Positions 9,835 to 32,385 of a DNA stretch of 34,238 bases are shown here, in pieces. Origin of the DNA: Planoprotostelium fungivorum (taxonomy: Eukaryota; Evosea; Variosea; Cavosteliida; Cavosteliaceae). The position numbers were made by a program, and so were the translations under genes. Each line of letters starts with the position of its first letter. The first letter of the stretch is position 1. The stretch is from positions 1-34,238 of the forward strand of contig MDYQ01000270.1 of NCBI GenBank assembly GCA_003024175.1, given 5' to 3'. The notes under the pieces were generated by a model that searched no databases, had not been told where the DNA came from, and worked only from the letters and a program-made list of their open reading frames with translations.

Positions 9835-12800
9835 ATGCATACAGCACTATTCTACCTATTTCTACTCTGGTCCCTGGCATTGGGCGCATTTGTCAGCGAA
9901 CACCACAGGGAACTCATAGAGAAGAGCCTGAACGAAAAGGGAAGAGTCAAATTGCTTGTGACATACGCCGCCTCCTCCACCTTCTTCAATGAGCTCGGTC
10001 ACGCGGAAGCGACACCTCTATCGCGATTACAGATCGAACAACGCTGGTCCAAAGTGCAGCCCAAGATCTTGTCCATCAATAATGGGAAGAGAGCAGACGA
10101 GCCAGACATTGTCGTCCACCGAATCATGCAACAACTGATTCCAGTCGCTGTGGTCACCGCGACCAGAGAGGGATACCAACAACTCCTCAACTTGGAAGAC
10201 GTACAGAACATCGAGTACGACGGAAAAATGAAGTTGAACATGGCAGAAGCCACGGATATCACTGGAGCCAAGAATGTCAGAACACCTTCTCTCGGTGGAA
10301 ATACAAAGTCTGCATGATCGTTCCATTCTTCGTTGCTCATTTTACTTGCAGTTACGATGGAAGAGGATGGACCGTGGCCGTTTTAGACGATGGCTTCTCA
10401 TTAAGCAACCCTTTCCTTCAGAACAAAGCCGTAGGGGAAGCATGCTTCGCCGACGGTGAAGATACATTCTGCCCGAACGGTGATTCGTCTCAATCAGGTG
10501 CGCATCTTCCACCATCTCGGTGTCTCACTCGAAGGAAGGACCTGGCTCGGCCACACCTGGTGCCGGTGGAACTCACGGTACTCACGTGGCGGGGACTGTC
10601 TTAGGCAACACGACGGGGCTGCAAGGAATCGCTCCTGGTGCAACTCTTCTCGGTGTGAACGTGAGATTCATCACATCGAACGACGTGATCACATCACGTG
10701 TCTGACATCATCTTCAGATCTTCGGTATCTATCCCAACGGATCTGCGGGCGAGTACAACGCCTACAGCTCGCTGTTAGATGCTCTCATCTACGTCCACAA
10801 CCAGACGTTCTACCACAAGATCGCCGCCGTATCTCTATCCATCGGTTCTAGCCAGAGATATGACAACTATTGCGACAGATTCTTCACTTCGGTGAGTCGA
10901 TCATCTTCGAATACCGTACGATGATGCTGATGCGGATGATGCAGTTGACCACCGTGATGAGAGCGTTGAGACAGAGAGACGTTGCCATCGTCATTGCTGC
11001 CGGTAATTCTGGGTTTAAGAATGGTATCGCTTTCCCTGCTTGCATGAGGTGAAAGAATCATCACGATGATGAAAAGATGACGGCTGATCAGTATGGCCTT
11101 CGCCATCGGGGCTAGTAGTAAGGGAGACAACCCGGCCTCCTTCTCCAACAGTAACTTCATGGTCAAATTATTCGCACCTGGAGTCGACATTTATTCATCC
11201 ATAGACAGCACGAGATACGAATACTACAAGGGTGGGTCTTCATACACAAAATGGAAATTGCTGCAATTCACATTTATTTACAATGGTAGGTACCAGCATG
11301 GCCTGCCCTGTCGTCTCTGGCGCATTTGCANTCTGGATTTAAGAATGGTATCGCTTTCCCTGCTTGCATGAGGTGAAAATCATCAAGATGATGAAAAGAT
11401 GACGGTGGATCAGTATGGCTTTTGCCATCGGGGCTAGTAGTAAGGGAGACAACCCGGCCTCCTTCTCCAACAGTAACTTCATGGTCAAATTGTTCGCACC
11501 TGGAGTCGACATTTATTCATCCATAGACAGCACGAGATACGAATACTACAAGGGTGGGTCTTCATCCACAAGATTGAAATTGCTGCAATTCACATTCATT
11601 TACAATGGTAGGTACCAGCATGGCCTGTCCCGTCGTCTCTGGCGCATTTGCAGTCTACCGTTCCGTGTGTGAGTCCCAATTCTTTCAAATCAATCCACAT
11701 TTTATTCACTTTTAATCTCAGACGGAGCGACACCCACCTCAGATTCCATCCTCAAGAAATTTCAAGATACGGGCCGTCTCATTGTAGATCCAGGCAACGG
11801 AAGAACTTTTCCGAGAATCGACTTGGCCCGAGCTCTCTGGTCGAACACGTCGAGATGTGGCAACTCCGTTGTAGACGAAGGGGAGAGCTGTGACGATGGA
11901 AACTTGTACAGTGGAGACGGCTGCACGTCTCGCTGCGAGATCGAGCCCCTCTACTACAAGAACGGGACTTCTGTGTCGTTCAGAAATGATCTCGTCAGAC
12001 AGAACGAGAACATGGTATCCGTGAGAGCCAACAGCGTGGGGTCCATCTGGTGAGTGTNCCTCAGATTTCATCCTCAAGAAATTTCAAGATACAGGTCGTC
12101 TCATTGTAGATCCGGGAAATGGAAGAACTTTTCCAAGAATCGACCTGGCTCGAGCTCTCTGGTCGAACACGTCGAGATGTGGCAACTCCGTTGTAGACGA
12201 AGGGGAGAGCTGTGACGACGGAAACTTGTACAGTGGAGACGGCTGCACGTCTCGCTGCGAGATCGAGCCCCTCTACTACAAGAACGGGACTTCCGTGTCG
12301 TTCAGAACCGATCTAGTCAGACAGACCGAGAACATGGTATCTGCGAGAGCTAACAGCGTGGGGTCCATCTGGTGAGTGTAGTGATGATGAGACGACGTCA
12401 TGACCCAAGATAGGACGGCGAGGACGGAAGCAGGTGCGACCACTTTCACTCACAATTACAACCGAAACCCGAACGGAAACGAAGATCGTCTCAGCTTTTA
12501 CTACAACATGCCGGCCGCCAGCTTCAACACGACGCAGAGGTTGAGCTTGGAGTTTCAGATGTCCCTCTCCCTCTACGATCCCGCAGGCGGCAGAGGAAAT
12601 TGCGAGCAGGGTTTCTTTGTTGTGGTCAACGGGTGAGACCTCACGATAAACCGTCACGACCTCATCATCACCGCCATCGGCTGATCATGCAACAGACAAC
12701 CCGTCCAATCATCAGGTTTTCCTTACAACGGCAATCTGAACACAAATTCATCTCTGTCCGTACCCAACTTCCCAGGCGTACGAGCCTGGTGTGGTTTCTC

Positions 12801-13191: not shown

Positions 13192-16100
13192 TTATTGATA
13201 CATTCCGTAATCGTGAGGACGGAGGTCGGGGGAGAAACTGTACAAGTTTTCGTTGGTCTCCTTCTTTGTTGGTATCAGATTCTCCTTCCTGTGATGTGAT
13301 TCGATGTGATCTTGCAGTTCTCTGACGATGTCTTTACTCGTCATCCTGTCTTTCGCATCTGCTTTCCAGCTGCAGAAGGTCATCTCTTCGTTCGATGACG
13401 ATGATCTCACCATCTCTCGATGATCGAATTGTGCAGCTCTTCACCTTTGTTGTCTAATCTTCCACCCCCTGTCACGTATTCTCTGATCTATCGTTCGCGT
13501 CAGAACCATTCTAACGAATGAATTTGAAATACCTGTTGATCGGTCATGGCACCATAGGGCTCTTTACCATCCGATAAGACTTCCCTGATAGATTTGATCA
13601 GTAATTTGTTTCAATTCCAGCTCATACCAGAAGAGGACACCGAAGGACCAGATGTCAGAAGCATAGCTGTATTCTCCTTTCACCATGACTTCCGGTGCCT
13701 ATCAAGTTCAGCCATCCATCTCAATCATTTAAAGGTTCTCACGTTCCATCGCTGTTCACTGATGAATCGGCTCACAGCCTTCTTATTCGCCTTCATCGAT
13801 TCACCTTTATACGTGTCATTCTCCAGACGTGGAAGCTTGTGATGTGATATACGCACCGAATCCGGAGAGTTTGGCCGTATTACCTTTGATCAATACGTTT
13901 CTGGCCGCTACATCCGTGTGAATTATCTCGGCCGATTCGAGGTAAGACAAAGCCCTCGCGATTTGCAGCATTCTATCTTCACGTCAGTCTCTTTGTACAA
14001 CAACGAATTCATCACTCACATGTCGTAACGATGACTGATGACAAAGTCATTCGCGTCGACCAACTTTTGTCTCAGATTGTAATCCATCAATTCGAATAAG
14101 ATCCACGTGTCTCCACCATTATCGTTGAAGTGAGACAGATACTGCACCACGTTCGGATGATGTAGAGACTGGGCACATCAATCGAAATTGTAGATTGTCA
14201 TGTCACCTTCAGGTTCATCAACTCGTTCTGTAATTTCTTCGAATCTTTTGATCTCGTCTTCTTGACGGCCACGTGAGTTGTACCAGACTGCAAGCCTCTG
14301 TAGATAGTCGAGCTCTCTCCTTCTCCGATCTTCTCTTCTAACGTGACGAATTGCTGATGTTCTCGTCAATTCTATCCAATTCGATTCGATTTCAACTCAC
14401 GCTGGCATCCATGGTATCCAATGGAATATTTTCCATATTCGCCTGTTTTGTCTTCAGTTCGATACAATTTGGAGGAAAAAGTGATCACCTGTGCTGCAGA
14501 TCGCCTCTTTTTGAGAAGAATGAAGACAATTACTACCAGTACGGCGATCAAGAAAACGGACCCCACCACCACACCTGACGGTGTCATTTTCCTCCACGAA
14601 ATCTTCACTCACCGATGATAATTGGAACCATTGATGGAGAAGCAGCTCCATTGTCGGGCGCGACATTTCCTGGTCGTACGGGTGGACTTCCCACCGTGAA
14701 ATTCGTGAGATGATTGCAATTACAAGTGATGACGTAAGAAGTGTAGTTCCTCTCCGTTGAACACCCGTCGTCGCTCCAAAAGTGATTCGTCTCACTGTAA
14801 TACAGACACGAAACAGAGTCGAGTTGTTCTCTCGAAGTCAAACCGCTGGTGGGAATGACAATGGTAATATTCTCCTTCGAATCGGACACCTGCCACCAAT
14901 CAATCAAATATCATAGTGATGAATGATCACCTCTACGATGTTGCCATTGGCATCCGTGATGGTGAGGCCGTAGATGGAGGCCGATAGATTCTCCGGAGCT
15001 TTGACGGAGAAATTTCCACTATTGTAAGCGTATTCCATGAATACGACAAGAGCAGGTGGTGTCTGCTGATTTTCCGCCCTCGTTGTCTTCAGATCTTCCA
15101 AGAGTGACAGGCTGATCGACGCGGTAGCTGGGGTTATCTTATCTCCTCCCTGCGTAGTATTTGTCGACGTCGACACTTGGATCTGTACGATGGAGGTTGA
15201 GTTCAGCGTAGGTCTTGTGGTGTCGTAAGCGGTGAGGGAGAGAGAAGGTGCAGTGATGCTGATGGGATTGGATGATGTCTTGTTCGAGAACAGCTGTGAC
15301 ACTGTGTTGTAGATGACTTCTGTGGATACAGTCTTGTTAGGTGCGGCGATGTGCTGTATGGTCTGATTGGCTTGTCCATCAGAGATGGGAGAAGGAGGGG
15401 GAGGCACGGTTGTAGATGGAGTGGAGGTCGTAGAGGATGCCACTGATGAGGTAGAGGAGGTGTAAGTGGATGTGAAGGATCTCGTCGTGGTGGATGATGT
15501 TGTTGATGTGGTAGAGGATGTTGTTGATGTGGTAGAGGATGTTGTTGATGTGGTAGAGGATGTTGTTGATGTGGTGGATGAATATGTTGGAATCAGCTTT
15601 GTCGTGGATGTGGTAGGAGCTGCACTCGATGTCATTGCAGCTGAATCCGTCACAGAAGATGGTTCTGAGGGAATACCTACAGGTCCACCCGTCACAGAAT
15701 ATGGAATTGGCACTTTCGAGGTAGTCGTGCTCGACGAACAAGGTGATCCACAGCTGAACTGACTCGTGCTCCCGCAGTTGTCGAGATAGACTTGACTCGA
15801 TTTACCCGATGTCATCAGGCGACAGTACGCGTCCCCATTATCTGTGAGCAGTGAACTGCCCGGATCATCTAAATCGACGGACGGCCTTGTAGAGTTGTTG
15901 GGGCTGATCGTGAAGCTGGTCGAATACAATGAATGGGCACCTGTATCGATCAACGTCTCTCGAGAGGATCTTTACACTCACCGGCGTGAAGGAGGACTAA
16001 AGATTGTGCCTGCGATTGATAATCACCGTAAATGATACAATCAAGAAAGGAAGTCGTTCCGTTCGATTCGATGGCGTGAACGTTACCAGTAGATAATTTA

Positions 16101-17702
16101 GCGAATGTGAAATTGGATCGGGTGAAAGATCCACCAGAGGTAGTCAGTTTTACCACTGTGGAAGATCAGAGAGAAATAAAAGGAATTCCATTCACGTAAA
16201 ATCTTGGCATTTCCACCCTTGAAAGAAGAATCGGCGATGTCAGCCCTCCCAGCAGACACGATGACTGATTCATTCAGAAGATTAAATAAATTTGCCTCAC
16301 CGTCTGCGCTAGATCCTTCAAATTGGCATCTTTGAATGAGAACGTCATCCGCTTGGATCAGATTGCCTGACCCCACAGCGTTACTGGTGAAGCCACAATC
16401 AGAAACTTCCATCTGATTTGAACCCAAATATGAGATCAAGGGTTGCTGATTCGATGTGAATTGACATTGGTAGACGGTCACAGATTTCCAGCCGTTGAGA
16501 ATGACAGAACCGTCGCTCGCTCGATTGTCCGTGAAATTAGAATATTCGACGGACAACTGACTCCAGGTCTCTGCATCATGTCATTCAATGATGGATCGTG
16601 ATGATGACGGTGACTCACTCAACAAGGGTCCCACATTCGAAGCGATGACTGAAGTATCCAGCGAGGCAATAGAAGTTAAGATAGCACCCTGACTCAAGAA
16701 GGTATTATCGGTTATATTCAAACGGAGCAACTGAGCGATTCCGGCATTGATCACGTGACCTGAACAGCTGACGTTCCTGAATAGACTGTCGGTCACTTTC
16801 ACCAGATTGACTGCGACTGATGTCCTTCAGCTACATACATATCGCAATCTCACATATGACATCGTTCATGGATGTCGTGTCTGAGACGTCGATCACTTCG
16901 ACTTGATGCAAGATAACAGAGTTCTGACCGTAGAGGAAGGGATTGCGGCTGAGGTCTCCTGTGAAGGTGGCCAGGCTGACGCGGATGACTCGATACCCAG
17001 AATCATCGAGATGATTATCCAGATAAGAAGAGATGAATTGAGAGGGTGTATCTCCGGCGAGGACGGTGATGTTGTGACTGTTTGTTGTGATGCCCGATCG
17101 AATGAGGGTCACTTGACTCAGAATGACTTCACCACTGACGATCAAGAACGTGTCCTCCATGATGGTACTGGTCACAGTCAAGCCTGATGAAGTCAGCGGA
17201 GATCGTGAGAAGGGACTCATTACTCGATTCGTAATTGGGTTCCCATTTGAAACCATTGAGATGGCTTCTTGTAAAGGTGAAGGAAGTAGTAATACTATCT
17301 GATGATAGGCTACCAGATGTGATATTGAAATAGACGAAGGAGACCTAAAGATGATGAGCGGACGGAACATCGGATCGTAATGCACTTCACTTTTGAAATG
17401 TTTGTGAGTTTCAGATTGACGGTGGCGGGGGTGAACGGCGGCAGTAACCTGACGATGAGGTTGAGGGGGTCTTGGCCCGTCCAGTGCAACTCAACGAAGG
17501 CGGTTTCAAACAGAGGAGCGGATATCTCCACGGAAGTTTCATTGAGTGGGATTGCATTGAACGCTGTGAGGATCAACCTTCGTTGCATCTTCTTCCCACC
17601 GTCTATAAATCCAATGGCGGAGGAGTGAACCCAAGAGCCAGCGGATGGAGTGGAGTAGATCAAAACGAGACAGAAGAACCAAAGAGGTGTGTCCATCTTC
17701 AT
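13192..17702 (-). CDS. Beta-helix / mucin / GAIN-GPS receptor with tyrosine-kinase-like pseudokinase (paralog 1)
   Basis: A single-pass surface receptor of well over 1,000 residues. Order: signal peptide from ATG 17702 (MKMDTPLWFFCLVLIYSTPS); beta-helix-like repeats (VEYSNFTDNRASDGSVIL, VSDCGFTSNAVGSG); a Ser/Thr mucin stalk; a GAIN-like region from about 15390; a GPS motif with paired Cys, Trp and CNCNHLTNF, predicted cut between Leu and Thr codons at 14707/14706; a membrane helix (VVVGSVFLIAVLVVIVFILL, then KKRR); and the kinase domain. The kinase has a Gly loop (GEGESSTIYRG), the Lys of VAVKK, Glu in NELMNL, HTDVAARN in place of HRD, SGFG in place of DFG (codon 13861-13863), QRWNAPEVM, SDIWSFGVLFWEV and RCWKADAKDR. 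Loss of the DFG Asp predicts weak or no catalysis. At least 15 introns. The stop is 13192-13194. GAIN/GPS on a kinase is unusual (see findings). Confidence 0.85.
14698..14724 (-). other. GPS autoproteolysis motif (paralog 1)
   Basis: The codons read Cys-Asn-Cys-Asn-His-Leu-Thr-Asn-Phe. In adhesion GPCRs and polycystin-1 the bond between His-Leu and Thr is cut by the GAIN domain itself. The preceding Cys and Trp residues of the motif (SCLYYSETNHFWSDDGC) are also present. Confidence 0.85.
15181..15390. repeat. Near-identical tract shared with 29132-29341
   Basis: These 210 bp at the start of the GAIN-like region match 29132-29341 with only three visible mismatches and no indel. Coding on both sides is clearly diverged between the two paralogs. 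The encoded peptide begins SDGQANQTIQHIAAPNK. Confidence 0.9.
15496..15579. repeat. 21-bp minisatellite in mucin stalk (paralog 1)
   Basis: There are four head-to-tail copies of a 21-bp unit (gatgttgttgatgtggtaga plus g on the plus strand); the last is slightly altered. On the coding strand each encodes a seven-residue Ser/Thr block (STTSTTS type), so copy changes alter stalk length without shifting frame. Confidence 0.9.
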
Positions 17703-24430: not shown

Positions 24431-27167
24431 ATGAGGTCACTCTTGTTCCTGTGTCTTCTCTTGGCCTTCGCTCAGGCGGGCCGATTGGCCCCTCACTATC
24501 ATAAGTCTCACGGATGGGTCATCTCTGAGGCCGCCGATGTCGAAGATGTCGTTCGTATCGGTTTCGGACCCAAGGTCAGTCTTCCCATTTGATGATGGAA
24601 GACGTATCTGATGTCGATTGACAGGAGTCCGCCGAGTCCATCAAGTTGGCTGACACCGTTCTCGAGTCGATTTCAGATCCCGCCTCCCCTCAGTTTGGAA
24701 GGCACTTGACTGCTGAAGAGATCCACAGGACCTTCGGTAATGTCGCCGCTCTCAACAAGGTCAAATCGTATCTCGATTCACACGGTAATCCATCCCATTT
24801 CCACTTGCCTTGGTCACTCGATTGATCATCTTCTCACAGGCATCGAATACACCGTCAGTGGAGATCACGCCTGGGCTGAGGTTCCAGTCCACAAGTTGCA
24901 GAAGATGTTGAACACCAAGTTCTTCAGACACACCCACCCCAATGCAGGAAGCCAGATCGCCGTTCGTGCTCAGTCATACAACATCCCAGACGAGGTGAGA
25001 CATCATCTCCCCTCACCATCTCACACGATGAACAGTTGGAGGATCACATCGCCATCATCTACGGAGTGGTTCACTTTCCCCACATCAGAAAGACAAAGAT
25101 GAACATCCAGCCCACCTTCTTCCAAGACATGACCCCCTCCAAGCTGCAACAAGTCTACCACGGTGAGCCCTCCCCTCCATCATCGTCACATCTGATGCGC
25201 TGTTGCAGTTCCAAATGTCCTCATCCAGAACTCATCTCAATCGCAAGTCATCTTGTCTGCCAGCAGCGGTTACATTCCATCAGATCTGTCCAAGTTCTTT
25301 CAAGTCACTGGCTCCGCCCTCAACGTCCTCGGCCTCAACTATCCTCTCGTCTTGAAGGGTCCCAACCAGACTGCAGACGTGAGACTTTTATTGTATTTTA
25401 ATCGCGCTGAATTGGGACAGTGCCTGCACCAGGATTGTGGGGAGTCCACTCTCGACGTGAGTTGATCGCCATCGTGATCATCATCATGATCGTCATCATG
25501 ATCATCATCTGACGGTGTCATCACAGTTGGAGTACATCATGGCTATGGCCCCTGGTATCAAGACTTACATCTTCAACACGCGTGGTGATGGTTTCTCTGA
25601 GCTCCCCAACTGGTTAGCCACAGACAACAACGCTCCTTTCGTAGCTTCCGCTTCTCTCGGTATCGGACTCGATTCAGTGAGCGATCATCATCATCACACG
25701 ATCAAGTCTCGACACGATCATCATCACACGATCACAATCATCATCACACGATCACAATCATCATCACACGATCACGATCGTCATCATCGTTGGAATGACA
25801 TACGTTCAGGACTACGCCCACAGACAATGCGCTATGGTTCAGAAGGCTGCCCTGCGTGGTGTCTCCTTCTTCGTTGCCAGTGGTGACTCTGGAGGTCTCA
25901 ACGATGACTGTTCTGCACAGACCGATTACCCCAGTGGATGTCCTTACATGATCTCCATCGGAGGTACCGATGGCAGCAACGACAACCGTCAAGAGGCAGC
26001 GTGGCAGTATGGAGGTGTTGGAAACGCCGCAAACATCTTCCCTCAGCCAGATTGGCAGAGTGAGTGTCTTCATGACGATGCTGCTGCTGATCATGATGAT
26101 GATCTGATGATGATCATCGATCATCGTGTGAGTCGATCGAGTCAACTCACATCGATAACAGAGCCTTACGCCGCCGCCTACCGCAACTCGAACCCCTCCG
26201 GCATCAACGTCGGAAACTTCAACTGGAACTCGCGTCTGTACCCCGATTTCGCCGCCCACGCCGGTGGTACCATGCTCATCTTCCAGGGCAAGCAGAGCGG
26301 AGCTATGGGAACCTCTTTCGCTTCCCCCATCTTCGCCGGAATCATCTCTCAGATCAACCACCAGAGAGCCCTCATTGGAAAAGGTCCGGTCGGTCTACTC
26401 AACCAACTCATCGCCAAGTTAAACAGCAACGGTACGTGTGATGACGTGTGATGACGTGTGATGAGGTACTGATGACGTCACAGGGGGTAGCGTGTTCAAA
26501 GATATTACGACGGGAAGCTCTCAGGGAGGAAAGTGTGGAAAAGTTCCCGCCACAACTGGATGGGATCTGGCCACTGGATTCGGTGCACCCGAATACAACT
26601 CCCTCTACAACGCTCTCGTCAAGGGTGATCACAACGCTTTCGTTACAGATCAATATTGAAACACACACATCATGATGAAGAAGTGATGACTGATTCGGTG
26701 CAGGTGCTGATCCCACGAACAAGCCCACACCTACCACTTCACCCGTCTACACCAAGACCGCCACCTACACCTACACCGCCGTCGGCACCCACACCATCAC
26801 CGCAAACTCTCCAGCCGGCTGCGACAATTCCATCGGTTCAGAGTTGACCTCTCCCAACCAGATCACTTCGAACGGAAAATTCGTGACCTCCCCCGACTGC
26901 AAGCTCCACCTCGTCCAGCAGCCGGACGGTAACGTAGTCATCTACAACGAGAATCAGCAGGCTCGGTGGGCTACGAACGGATTTGGAGACGCTCCACACC
27001 GTCTGGCCATGCAGGACGATGGAAATTTAGTTTCTTACAGCAAGAACGGCGTCAACTGGGCGTCGAACACTCAGTTTGCCGGGCAGGGACCTTACAAGTT
27101 GGTCCTCACCAACGAGGGAAAGCTTTCCATCGTCGATTCGAACGGACAGACCACCTGGAACAACTGA
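24431..27167 (+). CDS. Sedolisin (S53) protease fused to a bulb-type lectin domain
   Basis: A secreted or lysosomal acid serine peptidase of the tripeptidyl-peptidase/sedolisin family. ATG 24431 starts the signal peptide (MRSLLFLCLLLAFAQAGRLA). The pro-domain is visible (SPQFGRHLTAEEIHRTF, EYTVSGDHAWAEVPV). The catalytic Glu and Asp lie in GESTLDLEYIMAMAP, the oxyanion Asp in VASGDSGG and the nucleophile Ser in GAMGTSFASPIFAGI; VFKDITTGS near the end fits the calcium site. A Thr/Pro linker (NKPTPTTSPVYTKT) leads to a C-terminal bulb-type (mannose-binding, comitin-like) lectin domain with QPDGNVVIY and QDDGNLVSY, followed by a degenerate third motif (TNEGKLSIVD). Stop 27165-27167. At least eight introns, two of them rich in GATCATCATC repeats. 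It is convergent with the second receptor gene, 71 bp between stops. Confidence 0.88.
25683..25790. repeat. GATCATCATCACAC tandem repeats in an intron
   Basis: An intron of the sedolisin gene is filled with irregular copies of atcatcatcacacgatcac. A related intron lies at about 25460-25528 (gatcatcatcatgatcgtca). They resemble the repeats at 20109-20150. Coding exons on both sides are intact. Confidence 0.85.
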
Positions 27168-27238: not shown

Positions 27239-30200
27239 TCATTCGGAGAGGTCGAGTTTGGACGAAGATTGGATGCGGGATTGTAGTTCTGCGACAATGT
27301 CGCGGCTTGTCGTTCTCTCTCTTGGATCTGCCTTCCAACTGTTGTCGTTGAGTATGAAGACAGATGGTGACGATGACACACCATCTGCGCATGAGGACGT
27401 TGTGAGTCTCAAAACCCTTGCTGACCAGTCTTCCTCCTCCTGTCACATATTCTTCGATCTATCGATAGTCAGAAACACATCGAGAGGATACGATTTTCAT
27501 CATCTCAATAGAGACACACCTCTTGTTCACTCATGTAACCGTAGGGTATCTGTCCGTAGTTCATGACTTCCCTGTTGTCGGTCAGCCAATGATTGAATGG
27601 AAAGATGTTGTCAACTACCAGAAGAGAACACCAAAGGACCAGATGTCAGATGCGAAGCTGTACTCTCTTCTCTTCATCACCTCGGGTGCCTATGATTCAT
27701 CACTTTTCATTGATCACGGACTGTGACTCACATTCCATCGTCGGCTGATCTCTTTCACGCTCTCGTCTGGCTTCTGTCCGCTCATCATCGCGTGTCCTTC
27801 GCTCGTCAGTCCCACATAGTGAAGACGATCACGCACCAAAGCCGGATAATTTAGCTGTATCTCCCTTCATCAACACGTTTCTGGCTGATACCTCTGTGTG
27901 GATGATATCAGCTGATTCTAGATAAGATAATGCTTTTGCTATATGCAGCATTCCTATCGTCACATCAGTTTTAGATGAGGATGATACAATTCACATGTCG
28001 TATCGGTCTTCTAGGGGGAAATCTGCTGCTGTGGTCGCAATGAGCTTATCCTTCAGATTATATTGCATCAGCTCGTACAATATCCATGTATCTCCACTGA
28101 TGTCGTTGAAGTGTGACAGATACTGCACCACGTTCGGATGATGTAACGTCTGATCGTCATTCAGCGTAATAATGATAGTAAGGTAGACGTCACCTTGATG
28201 AGCGACACTTGGTTGCGCAACGCTTTCGCATCCATCTTCGACTTTTTCTTGACAGCCACGTGAGTCGTGCCAGACTGCAAGGCTTTGTAGACAGTGGAAT
28301 GCTCTCCTTGACCTATCTTGTCTTCTAACGTCACATATAGCTGAAGCCACCGTCATCTCTCCGTCTCTATGATTTCGAACTCACACTCGCATCGAGAGGG
28401 TCCAATGAAAGATCGTGCGTACCGGATTGCACTCTCGATCTCCTTCTTTTAAAGACAATGAGTGCGATGATGACCACAATAACAATCAATACGACCGATC
28501 CCACAACGACACCTATTCCGATCAGATTATGTCTTCCTTAAAGTCCTCCTTACCGATGATGACGATGATGAATGACGATGAAGGAGGATTGATAACGCTG
28601 TTTGCATCCTCGACGAATTGTCTCTTAGTGAGTGTACCGACGGTGAAGTTGGTGAGATGATTACACATGCAAGTGATGACGTAGCCGGTGAAATTGCGCT
28701 CCGTGAAACACCCATCATTCTCCCACGTATAATTTGTCTCGTTGTAGTACAGACAAGACACAGCCATCAGCTCTTCGACAGAAGAGATACCTCTCGTCGG
28801 GATTACGATACTGATGTTCTCCTTCGAATTCGACACCTGTCACGATCGTGTCATTTTGACGTATCGTTAACATTCTTTCACCTCCAACAAATTGCCATTG
28901 GCATCCGTGATGGAGAGTCCGTATACTGTTGCGAATCGAATTGGTGCAGCTGCGGTGGAGAAATTTCCACTGTCGTAATCGTATTGCATGAACACCACGA
29001 GAGCTGGGGCACTCTGTCCCTCTTCTCGTCTCTTCTTGGTGAGGGAATTCAAGAGTGATACACTGATGCCAGCTATCGCTTTCACTGCTCTCGCCCGTTC
29101 TGTGCTGTCCCTTGGAGCTTCACCCACTTGAATCTGCACGATGGAGGTAGAGTTCAGCGTAGGTCTTGTGGTGTCGTAAGCGGTGAGGGAGAGAGAAGGT
29201 GCAGTGATGCTGATGGGATTGGATGATGTCTTGTTCGAGAACAGCTGTGACACTGTGTTGTAGATGACTTCTGTGGATACAGTCTTGTTAGGTGCGGCGA
29301 TGTGCTGTATGGTCTGATTGGCTTGTCCATCTGAGATGGGAGGAGGGAGACTGATTGTTGCAGATGGAGTGGATGTGGTGGAGGACATCGTAGATGACGT
29401 AGAATCGGGGAGAGAGGACGAGGTCGATGTCGAGGAGGATATTGGTATGGTGGATGATGTTGTTGATGTGGTAGAGGATGTTGTTGATGTGGTAGAGGAT
29501 GTTGTTGATGTGGTAGAGAATGTTGTTGATGTGGTAGAGGATGTTGTTGTTGGAATCGCATCCAATGTCGTTGAAGATGATGGCTTTGAGGATGCGGTGG
29601 AGGGTGTTGTCGATGCGATTGCGGATGTCGACGATGGTATAGAGGATGTTGTTGATGTGGTAGATGTAGTCGTCGACGATGTTGTTGATGTGGTGGGAGG
29701 CATCGTAGATGTGGTGAAAGGTGTTGTCGATACGCCTGAACTCGTACTCGATGTACTTGAGATTGTGCTCAATTCGCCCGAATATGATACCAGGAGACTC
29801 GTACTTGTACTCGATCTACTTGAACTTGTACTCGATGTACTTGAACTTGTACTTGATGTGATTGTACTGGTAATCGATGTACTTGAACTTGTACTCGATG
29901 TGATTGAACTGGTAATCGATGTACTTGAAATTAGACTCGATGCGCTTATGCTTGCGCTGGAGCTGATACTTGATGGGAAAATGCTTGTGCTGGAGCTGAT
30001 ACTGGATGGACTTGAGGATGATAGTGATCCAATTGTACTTGAACTTGGTGTGTCTGCACTAGTACTCGGTGCGCTTGAATTCATGCTGGATATGTCTGAG
30101 GATGTGACCGATACACTTGCAATTGCATCCGATGAGTCTGTCGGTGTGCTCAAAATGGTGCTCGATGAGATAGTGGTCGACATCGATGTTGTAGGACTTG

Positions 30201-32385
30201 ATTGGATGCTAGTAATAGGCATCGTAGCAGCTGTGGTAGAACTCGTTGTAGGCGGTAGAGCTGAACAATTGTTTGTCTCACAACTGTAGTATTCCTCCAT
30301 GACACAGCTGGAATACGAGATGAAGGATGAGATATTATCATGCAGAGAGCAGTAGATGGAACCGTCATCCACAGTCAAAGAATTGGTTGCGTTGGAAGTT
30401 GAGATGAGTGGGCTAGCTGTCGCATTGAACTGCGAGCGAGAGATCTTGTGATAGCCTTGGAGACAAGTCAACGACGGGATGGTACGTCTGACACGCACCA
30501 TAGTTGAGAACGATGAGAGGTGAGCTCCCCGTGAAGATACAATGATCTATCGTCATGTTGCCTGATGCGATGAGGGAGGAGACAGAGCCGTTCATATCTC
30601 GTGTGAAATTCGAGTTGGTGATGATTCCTCCTCGTGAAGTGAAAATAGCTGAATGATGTCAGACGTTAATCGATCCAGTGATGAATGGGTCTGTATGCAA
30701 ATTCACCAGCAGATCCAGATCGTTCACTGAAAGAACTTCCATCGATTGTGACCTCTCTCGCGAAGATATTGACTGGTTGTAGATCAATCTCCAACTTCCA
30801 CTCCTACACTCACAAGGATTTCCCAGGTTCTGTGAAAACATCGAGTTGTAGATGCCCATCGACCCAGTGATCTGCAGGAGAGTCCGTGACGACCGCATGT
30901 TGTACGACACATGACAGTTCGTCAAATTGACGTCTGACAAGGTGGTGATCAGCGGTGCTAGATTACCGATGAAGGTACTGCCGGCGACTGATATCTCACT
31001 CGTCGCCATGACGACGGTCGAGTTGGAATGCCCACCATTCGTATCGAAATTTCCACGGAATGTACAACCGACCAGATTCATCGCCCCTCCGTCTAGCCTC
31101 TTTCAGTCGTGACGTCGCAGGAGATATCTCACTTAGGATGGAGCCATAGACGCCCAATCGGTTGTAGAAGAACGATGTATCGGACACGATCATGCTGATG
31201 GAGCTGATCAGACCCACCGAAGATGACGGCGAGTCACAAAAGTTGTTAATGAAAGAGGATCCATTGATGTAGATGGAATTGGTACCGGAGATGAGGTCTG
31301 GACTGAGTCAGGTTTGACTAGTTGTATGTGGATGATCACCCGATCCGGTCACCCGGCAAGTATCGAAGGTAGTCCTATAGATGGACAGTGAGGATGATCG
31401 GATGAGGAACTGGCTGCAGGTGACATTCGTAAAGTGAGAATATCGAATGGTCAATTGTTGGAAGTTTCCTGAGACTACATTCAGATCGTGTGTGATGATC
31501 ACCCATAGATTATCACCAAAGATGTCTTTTTGAAGCGCATTTGCATTGGCAAAGATCACGTTCTCGAACAAACCAGAAGAGCCTGAGTAGCCGGGACTGG
31601 CTGATGCGGACACCCCCTGGATGAAGGAGTTCCGGATCTTGAGGAGGCCAAATGCAGATGAGATACGAATCATCAAAGGTAGATGATTGGATGAATAGTC
31701 CTCGACTGAGAACGTGAAGTCCTGACTGTTTGAAATGGACATTGCACAGTGACACATTGCACCGTGGCACGAGTGATGTGCCAGTTAGAGACGTGTTGGT
31801 AATGCTGACACCTGTGTCTTGTTAAATGTTGAAATTGTGTATATCTGACCTGAACAATAGAAGTTGGTGGAGGGGAACGAGACGTTGGATAGTGATGAAT
31901 CGACAAAGTTCAGTGCTGGAGTGATTCCGGGTAACAATGAGAGAGTTAGAGAACTCAGTGAAGACGAGGAGAATGTAAGATTCAGTGCGTCCGTAGTGAG
32001 GACTCCTCCATAAAGAAGAAAGTTTTTGAAGGTGAGCTGAGGGATTTAGTCCTGATCAGAATGAGACTGAGATTCACTTGTGTGATGTTGATGAATTCTG
32101 TGTTGCCCAGCGACATACGTGCATCATTAGGCGCAGAAGTCAGAAGTGTGAGAGATAAACTCTGACTACCACTCCAGTTGAATGCAGATGAACTGAACGA
32201 TTGAGATTGGATGATCGCTTCAGAACAATTCGGCTGGATGCTTCTGAATGCTACCATGGTCAGTCCTCATTCTGACCCTTCTCATGCTCCTCACCATCTT
32301 GAAAACTTGCCGTGCTCGAATAAGGACCACAGCTTACGCCCCACACGAGAGGAATTAGAGAGAGGACAATCCAACAGAGGCTCAT
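27239..32385 (-). CDS. Beta-helix / mucin / GAIN-GPS receptor with degenerate kinase (paralog 2)
   Basis: Paralog of the receptor at 13192-17702, same order of parts. ATG 32385 begins a signal peptide (MSLCWIVLSLIPLVWGVSCG). The beta-helix-like ectodomain includes LTIRYSHFTNVTCSQFLI and VAGSTFIGNLAPLI. The Ser/Thr stalk is much longer than in paralog 1 (about 29340-30250). The GAIN-like region ends in the GPS motif (NYTWENDGC, CMCNHLTNF), then a membrane helix (VVVGSVVLIVIVVIIALIVF) and KRRR. The kinase keeps GQGEHSTVYKA and the VAVKK Lys. It has Gln at the alpha-C Glu position (28209-28211), HTEVSARN with Glu replacing the HRD Asp (27892-27894), and SGFG replacing DFG (27841-27843). RRWN, APEVM, SDIWSFGVLFW and RCWKADPRERTTS remain. 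It is almost certainly a pseudokinase. Stop 27239-27241. Confidence 0.84.
28645..28671 (-). other. GPS autoproteolysis motif (paralog 2)
   Basis: The codons read Cys-Met-Cys-Asn-His-Leu-Thr-Asn-Phe, with the predicted cut between the Leu (28654-28656) and Thr (28651-28653) codons. The upstream Cys-Leu-Tyr-Tyr and Trp positions of the motif are retained as in paralog 1. Confidence 0.85.
29132..29341. repeat. Near-identical tract shared with 15181-15390
   Basis: The second member of the 210-bp pair, offset 13,951 bp, same orientation. Outside it the proteins are clearly different, for example STSTNTTQGGDK versus GEAPRDSTERAR on the GPS side. Confidence 0.9.
29456..29539. repeat. 21-bp minisatellite in mucin stalk (paralog 2)
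   Basis: Four copies of the same 21-bp unit as at 15496-15579. Beyond them (to about 30250) the stalk has further degenerate Ser/Thr codon repeats. The opposite strand is left open as a long Val/Asp frame, which is a by-product of the codon pattern. Confidence 0.9.

Follow-up and report, generated by a model that had tools for sequence, protein, structure and literature searches.

Can a GAIN/GPS self-cleavage joint be built into a single-pass receptor that ends in a kinase fold, and, if so, does that kinase still act as an enzyme? The question is raised by a gene, here called RK1, lying in a window (the whole stretch of DNA analysed) of 34,238 nucleotides from Planoprotostelium fungivorum (contig MDYQ01000270.1). 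A preliminary description had placed a receptor-kinase gene at 13192-17702, and these limits are right: on the minus strand the ATG lies at 17702 and the stop at 13194-13192, and the spliced translation yields one protein of 1258 aa from 18 exons (17702..13192). The model was made by hand from genomic sequence; its 17 introns, each 37-52 nt long, are of the GT-AG type, and the reading frame is free of stops. From its N terminus the protein runs from a signal-peptide-like start through an ectodomain, a Ser/Thr stalk, the GPS and one transmembrane (TM) helix to a tyrosine-kinase-group domain. The features, including a paralog (RK2), are as follows:

17637..17702, minus strand: start codon and signal-peptide-like N terminus, aa 1-22 (spliced translation; hydrophobicity read by eye)
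15738..17344, minus strand: ectodomain, aa about 105-571 with introns in between, perhaps like a beta-helix (Pfam Beta_helix, E 0.0023, under the cut-off)
15390..15737, minus strand: mucin-like stalk, aa 572-687 (66% Ser/Thr over 116 aa)
14692..15389, minus strand: GAIN-like region, aa 688-906, two exons, intron 14890-14930 (family profile against PDB)
14692..14811, minus strand: GPS, aa 867-906, predicted cleavage L901-T902, codons 14709-14707 / 14706-14704 (Pfam PF01825, E 9.5e-8)
14507..14619, minus strand: TM helix, aa about 931-955, then KKRR (strong hydrophobicity, peak KD 3.4)
13315..14353, minus strand: tyrosine-kinase-group domain, aa 976-1218, eight exons (PF07714, E 1.2e-51)
13192..13314, minus strand: C-terminal tail and stop, with three Tyr close to the end, ENLYSFSPDLRPHDYGMYQ (spliced translation)
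27280..32385, minus strand: paralog RK2, modelled from the GAIN-like region onward, with GAIN-like region, GPS (28639-28758), TM helix and kinase as in RK1 (3' end approximate; likely frame disruption near 27975)

The mucin stalk and the single membrane helix first described are both present, the first part of the helix being coded by the end of the GPS exon and the rest lying past the intron at 14575-14612. An ectodomain is likewise present, while its assignment as a beta-helix is weak (18.0 bits against a Pfam cut-off of 25.9); single-sequence AlphaFold2 modelling of exon 5 alone was uninformative on this point (pLDDT 29). Among the six Pfam families listed for RK1 there was no REJ, PLAT or polycystin match, and membership of the adhesion GPCRs was rejected on the absence of a 7TM (PF00002) match and the presence of one TM helix. 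A genome-wide search for PF00002 also returned none, but the same search was silent in every control genome too. Rfam and tRNA scans found nothing in the window, and in the NCBIfam scan all models listed for the RK1 kinase fell below their cut-offs, with no model for the GPS exon.

The GPS was claimed to be complete, and the PF01825 scan bears this out: it scores 32.9 bits against a curated cut-off of 22.5 (37.9 bits in a profile search of the genome's contigs), and the cleavage triad is intact, with H900-L901 before the predicted cut and T902 after it (CNCNHL, then T). The remainder of the proposed GAIN-like region fared less well. A family profile of this region matched adhesion GPCRs in 23 of 23 PDB chains (best E 4.6e-12), and 13 of the 23 alignments begin 25-83 profile positions before position 120, that is, ahead of the GPS (L3 spans positions 37-163 and G1 60-163, of 163). 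The underlying alignment drew on 42 automatically spliced loci, with uncertain upstream parts, from which 21 were chosen and 19 used (L012 and L029 left out; A3 holds 14). PF16489 matched neither the 19 members scanned at E<=1 nor full-length RK1 at E<=0.01, the family profile with the GPS cut off found no GAIN match at E<=10, and AlphaFold2 returned a low-confidence model of the RK2 region from a three-row alignment (pLDDT 33). The GPS part of the claim thus holds, and a GAIN fold beyond it is unproven in this family.

RK1 is not alone. The same 36.9-Mb genome carries at least 150 scored GPS copies (the best 150 of 176 candidates); the list is incomplete, as L154 and L155 are members outside it. 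A same-strand kinase lies within about 1.5 kb of 144 of the 150 copies (weakest accepted score about 83, against 57 for the best reverse-strand or null score), the distance from GPS start to kinase start is narrowly spread (median 376 nt, range 278-528, 112 loci measured), and a TM-like 19-mer occurs within 330 nt in 135 of 148 loci. At five loci (L044, L060, L080, L092 and L117) a single open frame covers GPS, TM and kinase N-lobe, and splice-aware alignment places no intron there from the kinase start to the Lys region; a sixth locus, L066, had been flagged for a kinase motif in frame with its GPS and was removed, its frame being without a kinase. That GPS and kinase exons belong to separate adjacent genes could be argued from the six GPS loci without a kinase (one of which is truncated where its contig stops) and from gene models built on genomic sequence alone. 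We give this idea next to no credence, and reject it on the family-wide linkage and the shared open frames, which uphold the original placement of GPS and kinase in one gene. Together, these observations point to a large, apparently undescribed receptor class of about 150 genes in one genome.

The cleavage site is nearly invariant in this family. Across the 150 copies, which were chosen by a GPS model and so are biased toward intact motifs, His is present in 150, Leu in 146 and Thr in 147, with Ser in the other 3; the GPS Trp is kept in 150 of 150 and the GPS cysteines, in order, in 148, 133, 150 and 116. L154 and L155, found via their kinases instead, likewise keep HLT. One copy, L137, has a stop codon in its GPS. 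Past the cut, conservation ends at about P6 (TNF[ST][ILV]G). Self-cleavage had been proposed to leave a tethered peptide that triggers signalling; the GPS and its cleavage residues stand, and the tethered-agonist idea is weakened because conservation past the cut extends only to about P6 and there is no 7TM domain for a Stachel to bind. It may instead be that self-cleavage is a folding or export step only, that the outer fragment stays in place, and that signalling proceeds, as it does in ordinary receptor kinases, through clustering of the ectodomains. Conservation over so short a stretch suits a buried strand better than an agonist peptide. Animal adhesion GPCRs frequently work without cleavage, however, whereas here every one of the 150 copies has Thr or Ser at the cleavage position, and we regard a pure folding role as quite possible without being the probable explanation.

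The kinase domain itself is well supported, with a PK_Tyr_Ser-Thr (PF07714) match at aa 978-1218 (176 bits, above the curated threshold). It had been called tyrosine-kinase-like; the kinase assignment holds and a TKL-type label was rejected, since the domain groups with tyrosine kinases among PDB matches (60 of the best 60, of 2550). The kinase of paralog L146 behaves identically (60 of the best 60, of 2637), and Src-type kinases make up most of the best 60 matches for L127, together with some LRRK2. The motifs do not support a receptor kinase of the conventional kind with catalytic activity. In RK1 the VAVK Lys is kept, HRD has become HTD (13920-13912; Asp kept, Arg lost) and the DFG Asp is replaced by Gly (KLSGFG, 13863-13861). 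With the DFG Asp missing and the fold otherwise conserved, RK1 would class as a pseudokinase by its residues, and its domain has probably lost enzyme activity, though the retained VAVK Lys and catalytic-loop Asp may allow some residual or metal-independent activity.

The same loss runs through the family. Among the 119 kinases in which both catalytic Asp positions can be read, the HRD Asp (D166) is found in 10, the DFG Asp (D184) in 13 and both in only 4 (L098, L100, L131 and L146), so that at least one catalytic Asp is missing in 115 of 119. These counts leave out 15 divergent members with WDF or a gap at DFG and a poorly aligned HRD (L002, L005-L010, L014-L017, L022-L024 and L029) and ten further kinases in which one or both columns are missing. 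A raw tally including the divergent members has both Asps in 11 rows, of which 7 belong to the divergent group; there L023 and L024, whose sequences are identical, may really have both. L154 and L155, which these counts do not cover, have the DFG Asp and not the HRD Asp. In a kinase tree of 119 of the 150 loci, 90 rows beyond one branch (97/84) have neither Asp (four of them show a gap at the DFG column, read by eye as Val or Cys), and the Asp-keeping rows, RK1 included, all fall among the other 29. At the same time 112 of 123 kinases retain K72, the VAVK Lys, and 122 of 123 retain the alphaC Glu. Judged by these residues, the family kinases are mostly pseudokinases.

Two further explanations bear on this pattern. 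The first is that RK1 is an unusual kinase that remains active, perhaps phosphorylating independently of Mg2+, with cleavage gating true kinase signalling. CASK, which also has GFG, phosphorylates without Mg2+; D166 is kept together with Gly at the DFG Asp in RK1, L090, L106, L139 and L143; and at D184 Gly occurs more often than any other residue (44 of 144 kinases tallied, with the poorly aligned divergent members and 11 gaps counted in). Selection for GFG chemistry would predict, however, that D166 is retained alongside, whereas relatives have lost the other Asp too (RK2 has HTE and GFG, and the 90-row group has neither), and we find this explanation unlikely. The second is that the receptors otherwise work but carry kinase domains in decay, as pseudogene remnants, as might be suggested by the likely disrupted frame of RK2, stops in the kinase models of L047 and L144 and in the GPS of L137, kinase fragments at L153 and L156, and five GPS loci without a kinase. 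Against this, the median dN/dS of the kinase domains is 0.26 and all 88 paralog pairs, which are not independent of one another, lie below 1 (kinase score >=150, dS 0.05-1, >=120 codons); the near-complete retention of the VAVK Lys and alphaC Glu argues in the same direction. Decay is thus highly improbable, and the low median dN/dS indicates that the kinase domains remain constrained, under purifying selection.

We favor, with a probability of roughly 55%, a reading of RK1 as a type I receptor pseudokinase on a GAIN/GPS joint: self-cut, with a kinase fold serving as switch or scaffold through paralog pairing, and gated by the ectodomain. It builds on architecture, cleavage residues, catalytic-residue loss, purifying selection and family size as read from the sequence; from these we infer cleavage itself, pairing, phosphorylation and gating by force or ligand. 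Ectodomain and stalk would be synthesized as a single chain, and the GAIN/GPS module would cut itself at HL/T in the secretory pathway, leaving the outer fragment non-covalently held on a membrane fragment that begins TNFTV, crosses the membrane once and ends in the tyrosine-kinase fold. The kinase domain, which probably does not phosphorylate via the normal Mg-ATP route, could act as a switch or scaffold, most likely paired with one of the few paralogs keeping both Asps. The tail tyrosines of RK1 would then be phosphorylated and read by SH2 proteins; 86 SH2 exon matches in the genome provide candidate phosphotyrosine readers. A ligand or a pull on the ectodomain may weaken the hold on the outer fragment or free it altogether, thereby altering the pairing, and a role in mechanosensing and adhesion would follow by inference. 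Ectodomains seem to vary among paralogs (LRRs lie upstream of L044 and a TIG domain upstream of L002, both assigned by position), and about 150 paralogs with differing ectodomains could form a recognition repertoire over one shared output module.

A broader and more speculative proposal, which we put forward tentatively, is that these genes constitute a new class of self-cleaving GAIN/GPS receptor pseudokinases, about 150 in number and with exchangeable ectodomains, expanded in a single-celled and probably amoebozoan organism, in which contact with prey or neighbours breaks the GAIN joint and non-catalytic folds steer a few active partners. This would amount to mechanically gated combinatorial recognition, originating independently of adhesion GPCRs and plant receptor kinases. 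If true, the self-cleaving GAIN joint would prove transferable as a module, able to gate single-pass receptors with a tyrosine-kinase fold beyond the 7TM and polycystin types, and would have expanded in a lineage probably outside Holozoa. The contrasting fates of the two ends, cleavage residues kept nearly always and kinase Asps lost in nearly all readable members, offer a testable case for receptor-pseudokinase signalling at the scale of a repertoire, and the family provides a 7TM-free setting for asking what GAIN cleavage is for.

No GPS or GAIN kinase is described in the titles, abstract beginnings and passages of the literature searched (including PMC12716839, PMC10445921, PMC4053784, PMC13197933, PMC8662651, PMC4758236, PMC5006619 and PMC7746228); a description may exist in the 2012 GAIN structure paper, a pseudokinase survey or the Protostelium genome paper. 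Like adhesion GPCRs, RK1 has a large ectodomain and a GPS with the same Cys/Trp pattern and HL/T site; it differs in having one TM helix and a kinase in place of 7TM, and no long hydrophobic agonist after the cut. Passages of a recent study place the GAIN-7TM union in holozoans only (eLife 2025, PMC12716839), and also describe protist GPCR-TKL/K and GPCR-TK proteins, 7TM receptors fused repeatedly and independently to TK/TKL kinases (PMC12716839). RK1 shares with these the fusion of receptor and kinase but is single-pass. Polycystin-1-like proteins carry GAIN/GPS outside the GPCR superfamily, with membrane-proximal cleavage; RK1 likewise has a predicted juxtamembrane cut site, but one TM helix and no REJ/PLAT match. 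The receptor pseudokinases ErbB3 and CCK4/PTK7 are type I proteins with a TK-group fold in which the Lys and alphaC Glu are retained and HRD/DFG degraded. The RK1 family has the same layout, but with a juxtamembrane GPS, about 150 copies and nearly all readable members degraded. Among amoebozoans, the portions consulted of two studies report 4 tyrosine kinases in Physarum and 21-22 in Acanthamoeba, some of the TK-group kinases with one TM helix and with many SH2 proteins alongside (PMC4758236, PMC4053784), and the term 'GPS' occurs 0 times in the main texts of both. The TK group is common to those receptors and the RK1 family, which has far more copies and a GPS. Plant receptor-like kinases form a large repertoire with LRR or other ectodomains, one TM helix and a Ser/Thr kinase, and to our knowledge carry no GPS. 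The layout of a repertoire on one module is alike in the two, whereas in the RK1 family that module combines a GPS with a TK-group kinase.

The hand-built model of the gene under study, RK1, has 18 exons and 17 GT-AG introns of 37–52 nt, and encodes 1258 residues with no in-frame stops. The features referred to below are as follows.

Window 17702 to 13192, minus strand: RK1 gene, hand-made gene model
RK1 aa 867-906: GPS (Pfam E 9.5e-8, over curated cut-off)
RK1 aa 978-1218: PK_Tyr_Ser-Thr (Pfam E 1.2e-51, over curated cut-off)
Window 25461-27167, plus strand: presumed sedolisin-like peptidase gene, apparently with a bulb-lectin-like segment at its end (both names assigned from the ORF sequence letters)
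Window 27280-32385, minus strand: RK2, a paralog of RK1

The GPS and kinase marks of the preliminary description are thus borne out, as is its one membrane helix, found as a single hydrophobic helix at ~aa 931-955 followed by KKRR. Its Ser/Thr stalk also stands (66% Ser/Thr over aa 572-687), whereas its beta-helix ectodomain is less well supported, the Beta_helix match falling under its Pfam cut-off (E 0.0023). There are 21 N-glycosylation sequons in aa 23-930, and the predicted cut lies at H900-L901|T902. Elsewhere in the window (11673-12375, plus strand), a cysteine-rich coding segment occurs as two near-identical copies either side of an N at ~12058, which may mark an assembly join within a neighbouring gene.

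The same genome (36.86 Mb, 471 contigs) was searched for GPS, and 150 of 176 candidates were scored, every one over the cut-off. The 148 loci outside the window were read from the GPS to ~1.5 kb downstream, contig ends permitting, and a kinase profile was aligned to GPS loci with a purpose-written splice-aware program. A same-strand kinase was found at 144/150 copies, both window copies included (139/145 when one is counted of each of five ≥97% identical pairs, which may be alleles); the weakest accepted locus scored ~83 vs 57 for the best on the reverse strand. Six loci were flagged as having a kinase motif in frame with the GPS; one (L066) was dropped, as its flagged frame held no kinase, and at the others (L044, L060, L080, L092, L117) one open frame spans GPS, TM helix and kinase N-lobe, possibly through an unspliced in-frame TM-kinase intron. 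This linkage and these shared frames uphold the placing of the RK1 GPS and kinase in one gene rather than two. At L003 the contig edge cuts the locus off, and no kinase was found within ~1.5 kb downstream at the GPS-TM loci L052, L053 (C351), L074, L081 and L104, possible truncated or decoy receptors; by eye, leucine-rich-repeat-like frames come after L052 and L053. Two members found via their kinase, L154 and L155, are absent from the GPS list, so the family exceeds it. Two kinase fragments, L153 (C259:84700-86900, close to RK1) and L156 (C116:268700-270500), with no GPS in the stretch examined, are probably partial duplicates.

In this census, chosen with the GPS model and so biased towards intact motifs (matches listed reach down to 31 bits; cut-off 22.5), the cleavage residues over 150 copies were His in 150, Leu in 146, and Thr in 147 or Ser in 3, with Phe at P3 in 147/150. 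HLT is kept in L154 and L155 too, though these were found independently of the GPS model. Such a pattern fits selection for self-cleavage. One chief rival is that cleavage is a folding step only; the post-cut consensus T-N-F-[ST]-[ILV]-G (Gly in 109/150), where conservation ends, fits a buried strand and not a long agonist peptide. At L137 (C61:40959-41072) a TAA stop lies within the GPS, so this locus is probably a pseudogene.

The GAIN/GPS module proposed earlier is best graded by part. A GAIN-region profile of 19 members (from 21 prepared, 42 spliced) picked up only adhesion GPCRs in the PDB: 23 distinct sequences at E≤1, the best at 4.6e-12. Most of the score comes from the GPS, but 13/23 alignments begin well upstream of it, including latrophilin-3 (profile positions 37-163) and ADGRG1 (60-163). 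However, the profile minus its GPS matched no GAIN protein, PF16489 was absent from the matches of 19/19 members scanned, and AlphaFold2 on the RK2 GAIN region gave an uninformative pLDDT of 33 (three-row alignment, read-through intron inside). We therefore regard the GPS as intact in sequence and a surrounding GAIN subdomain B as probable, while the GAIN fold as a whole is putative and unproven.

Only tyrosine kinases appear among the 60 PDB matches listed for the RK1 kinase (EGFR, PTK6, Fes, Abl, Src and others), and its domain goes with that group by sequence. The sequence does not support a conventional active enzyme, as RK1 carries KLSGFG in place of DFG and HTD in place of HRD. RK2 reads HTE and GFG; the frame of its kinase appears to be disrupted by one base where two exons meet (window 27950-27990, minus strand), so RK2 may be a pseudogene or contain an assembly error. 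Both catalytic Asp columns are readable in 119 of the 129 main-family kinases: the HRD Asp is kept in 10/119, the DFG Asp in 13/119 and both in 4/119 (L098, L100, L131, L146). The VAVK Lys (112/123) and alphaC Glu (122/123) are mostly retained. Left out of the Asp count because of poor alignment of their HRD region were 15 divergent members, two of which, mutually identical, may keep both Asps; also outside it, L154 and L155 keep the DFG Asp with HTA at the HRD site. The 15 left out (L002, L005-L010, L014-L017, L022-L024, L029) are a subfamily with a very divergent kinase, with WDFR at the DFG site where alignable and the HRD motif gone in most. As a single control, the same program read HRD and DFG in an unrelated kinase, L157.

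In a tree of the 119 domains, rooted for drawing only, one branch (97/84) sets apart 90 that keep neither Asp, four of them being gapped at the DFG position, where Val or Cys is read by eye. Every row that keeps an Asp, RK1 among them, falls in the remaining 29, where several changes arose independently. L127, one of the 90, matches mainly Src-type kinases in the PDB, with some LRRK2. L146 has the look of an intact tyrosine kinase, and the 60 PDB matches listed for it all belong to tyrosine kinases. Median kinase dN/dS was 0.26 over 88 non-independent pairs, with none >1, and by this measure the kinase regions are evolving under constraint.

We suggest that RK1 would most likely be a self-cut, two-piece receptor, the inner piece a kinase fold serving as a switch or scaffold that would probably pair with the few paralogs keeping catalytic residues. 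Each step, from cleavage and release to pairing and phosphorylation, is one that we infer. The other chief rival is an unusual Mg-independent kinase using GFG, as CASK is. For the switch or scaffold reading, the surroundings include 86 SH2 exon matches in the genome (E≤0.01), which suggest that the machinery for reading phosphotyrosine is sizeable. The sequence upstream of four members was translated as open frames, with no gene model. In Pfam, L044 has LRRs there and L002 has TIG plus an LRR N-terminal match under cut-off, with LRR-like frames, so ectodomains appear to vary from member to member; fragments upstream of L146 and L041 matched no Pfam family over its cut-off.

Our full-text literature search found no description of a GPS or GAIN kinase, which the Protostelium genome paper may nevertheless mention. 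The main texts on Physarum and Acanthamoeba do not use the term GPS; they report 4 and 21-22 tyrosine kinases, respectively (PMC4758236, PMC4053784). Amoebozoan family 2 GPCRs, in a set including Protostelium, had no GAIN (PMC10445921). According to a 2025 eLife paper, GAIN and 7TM were first united in holozoans, and elsewhere the two domains sit in other genes (PMC12716839).
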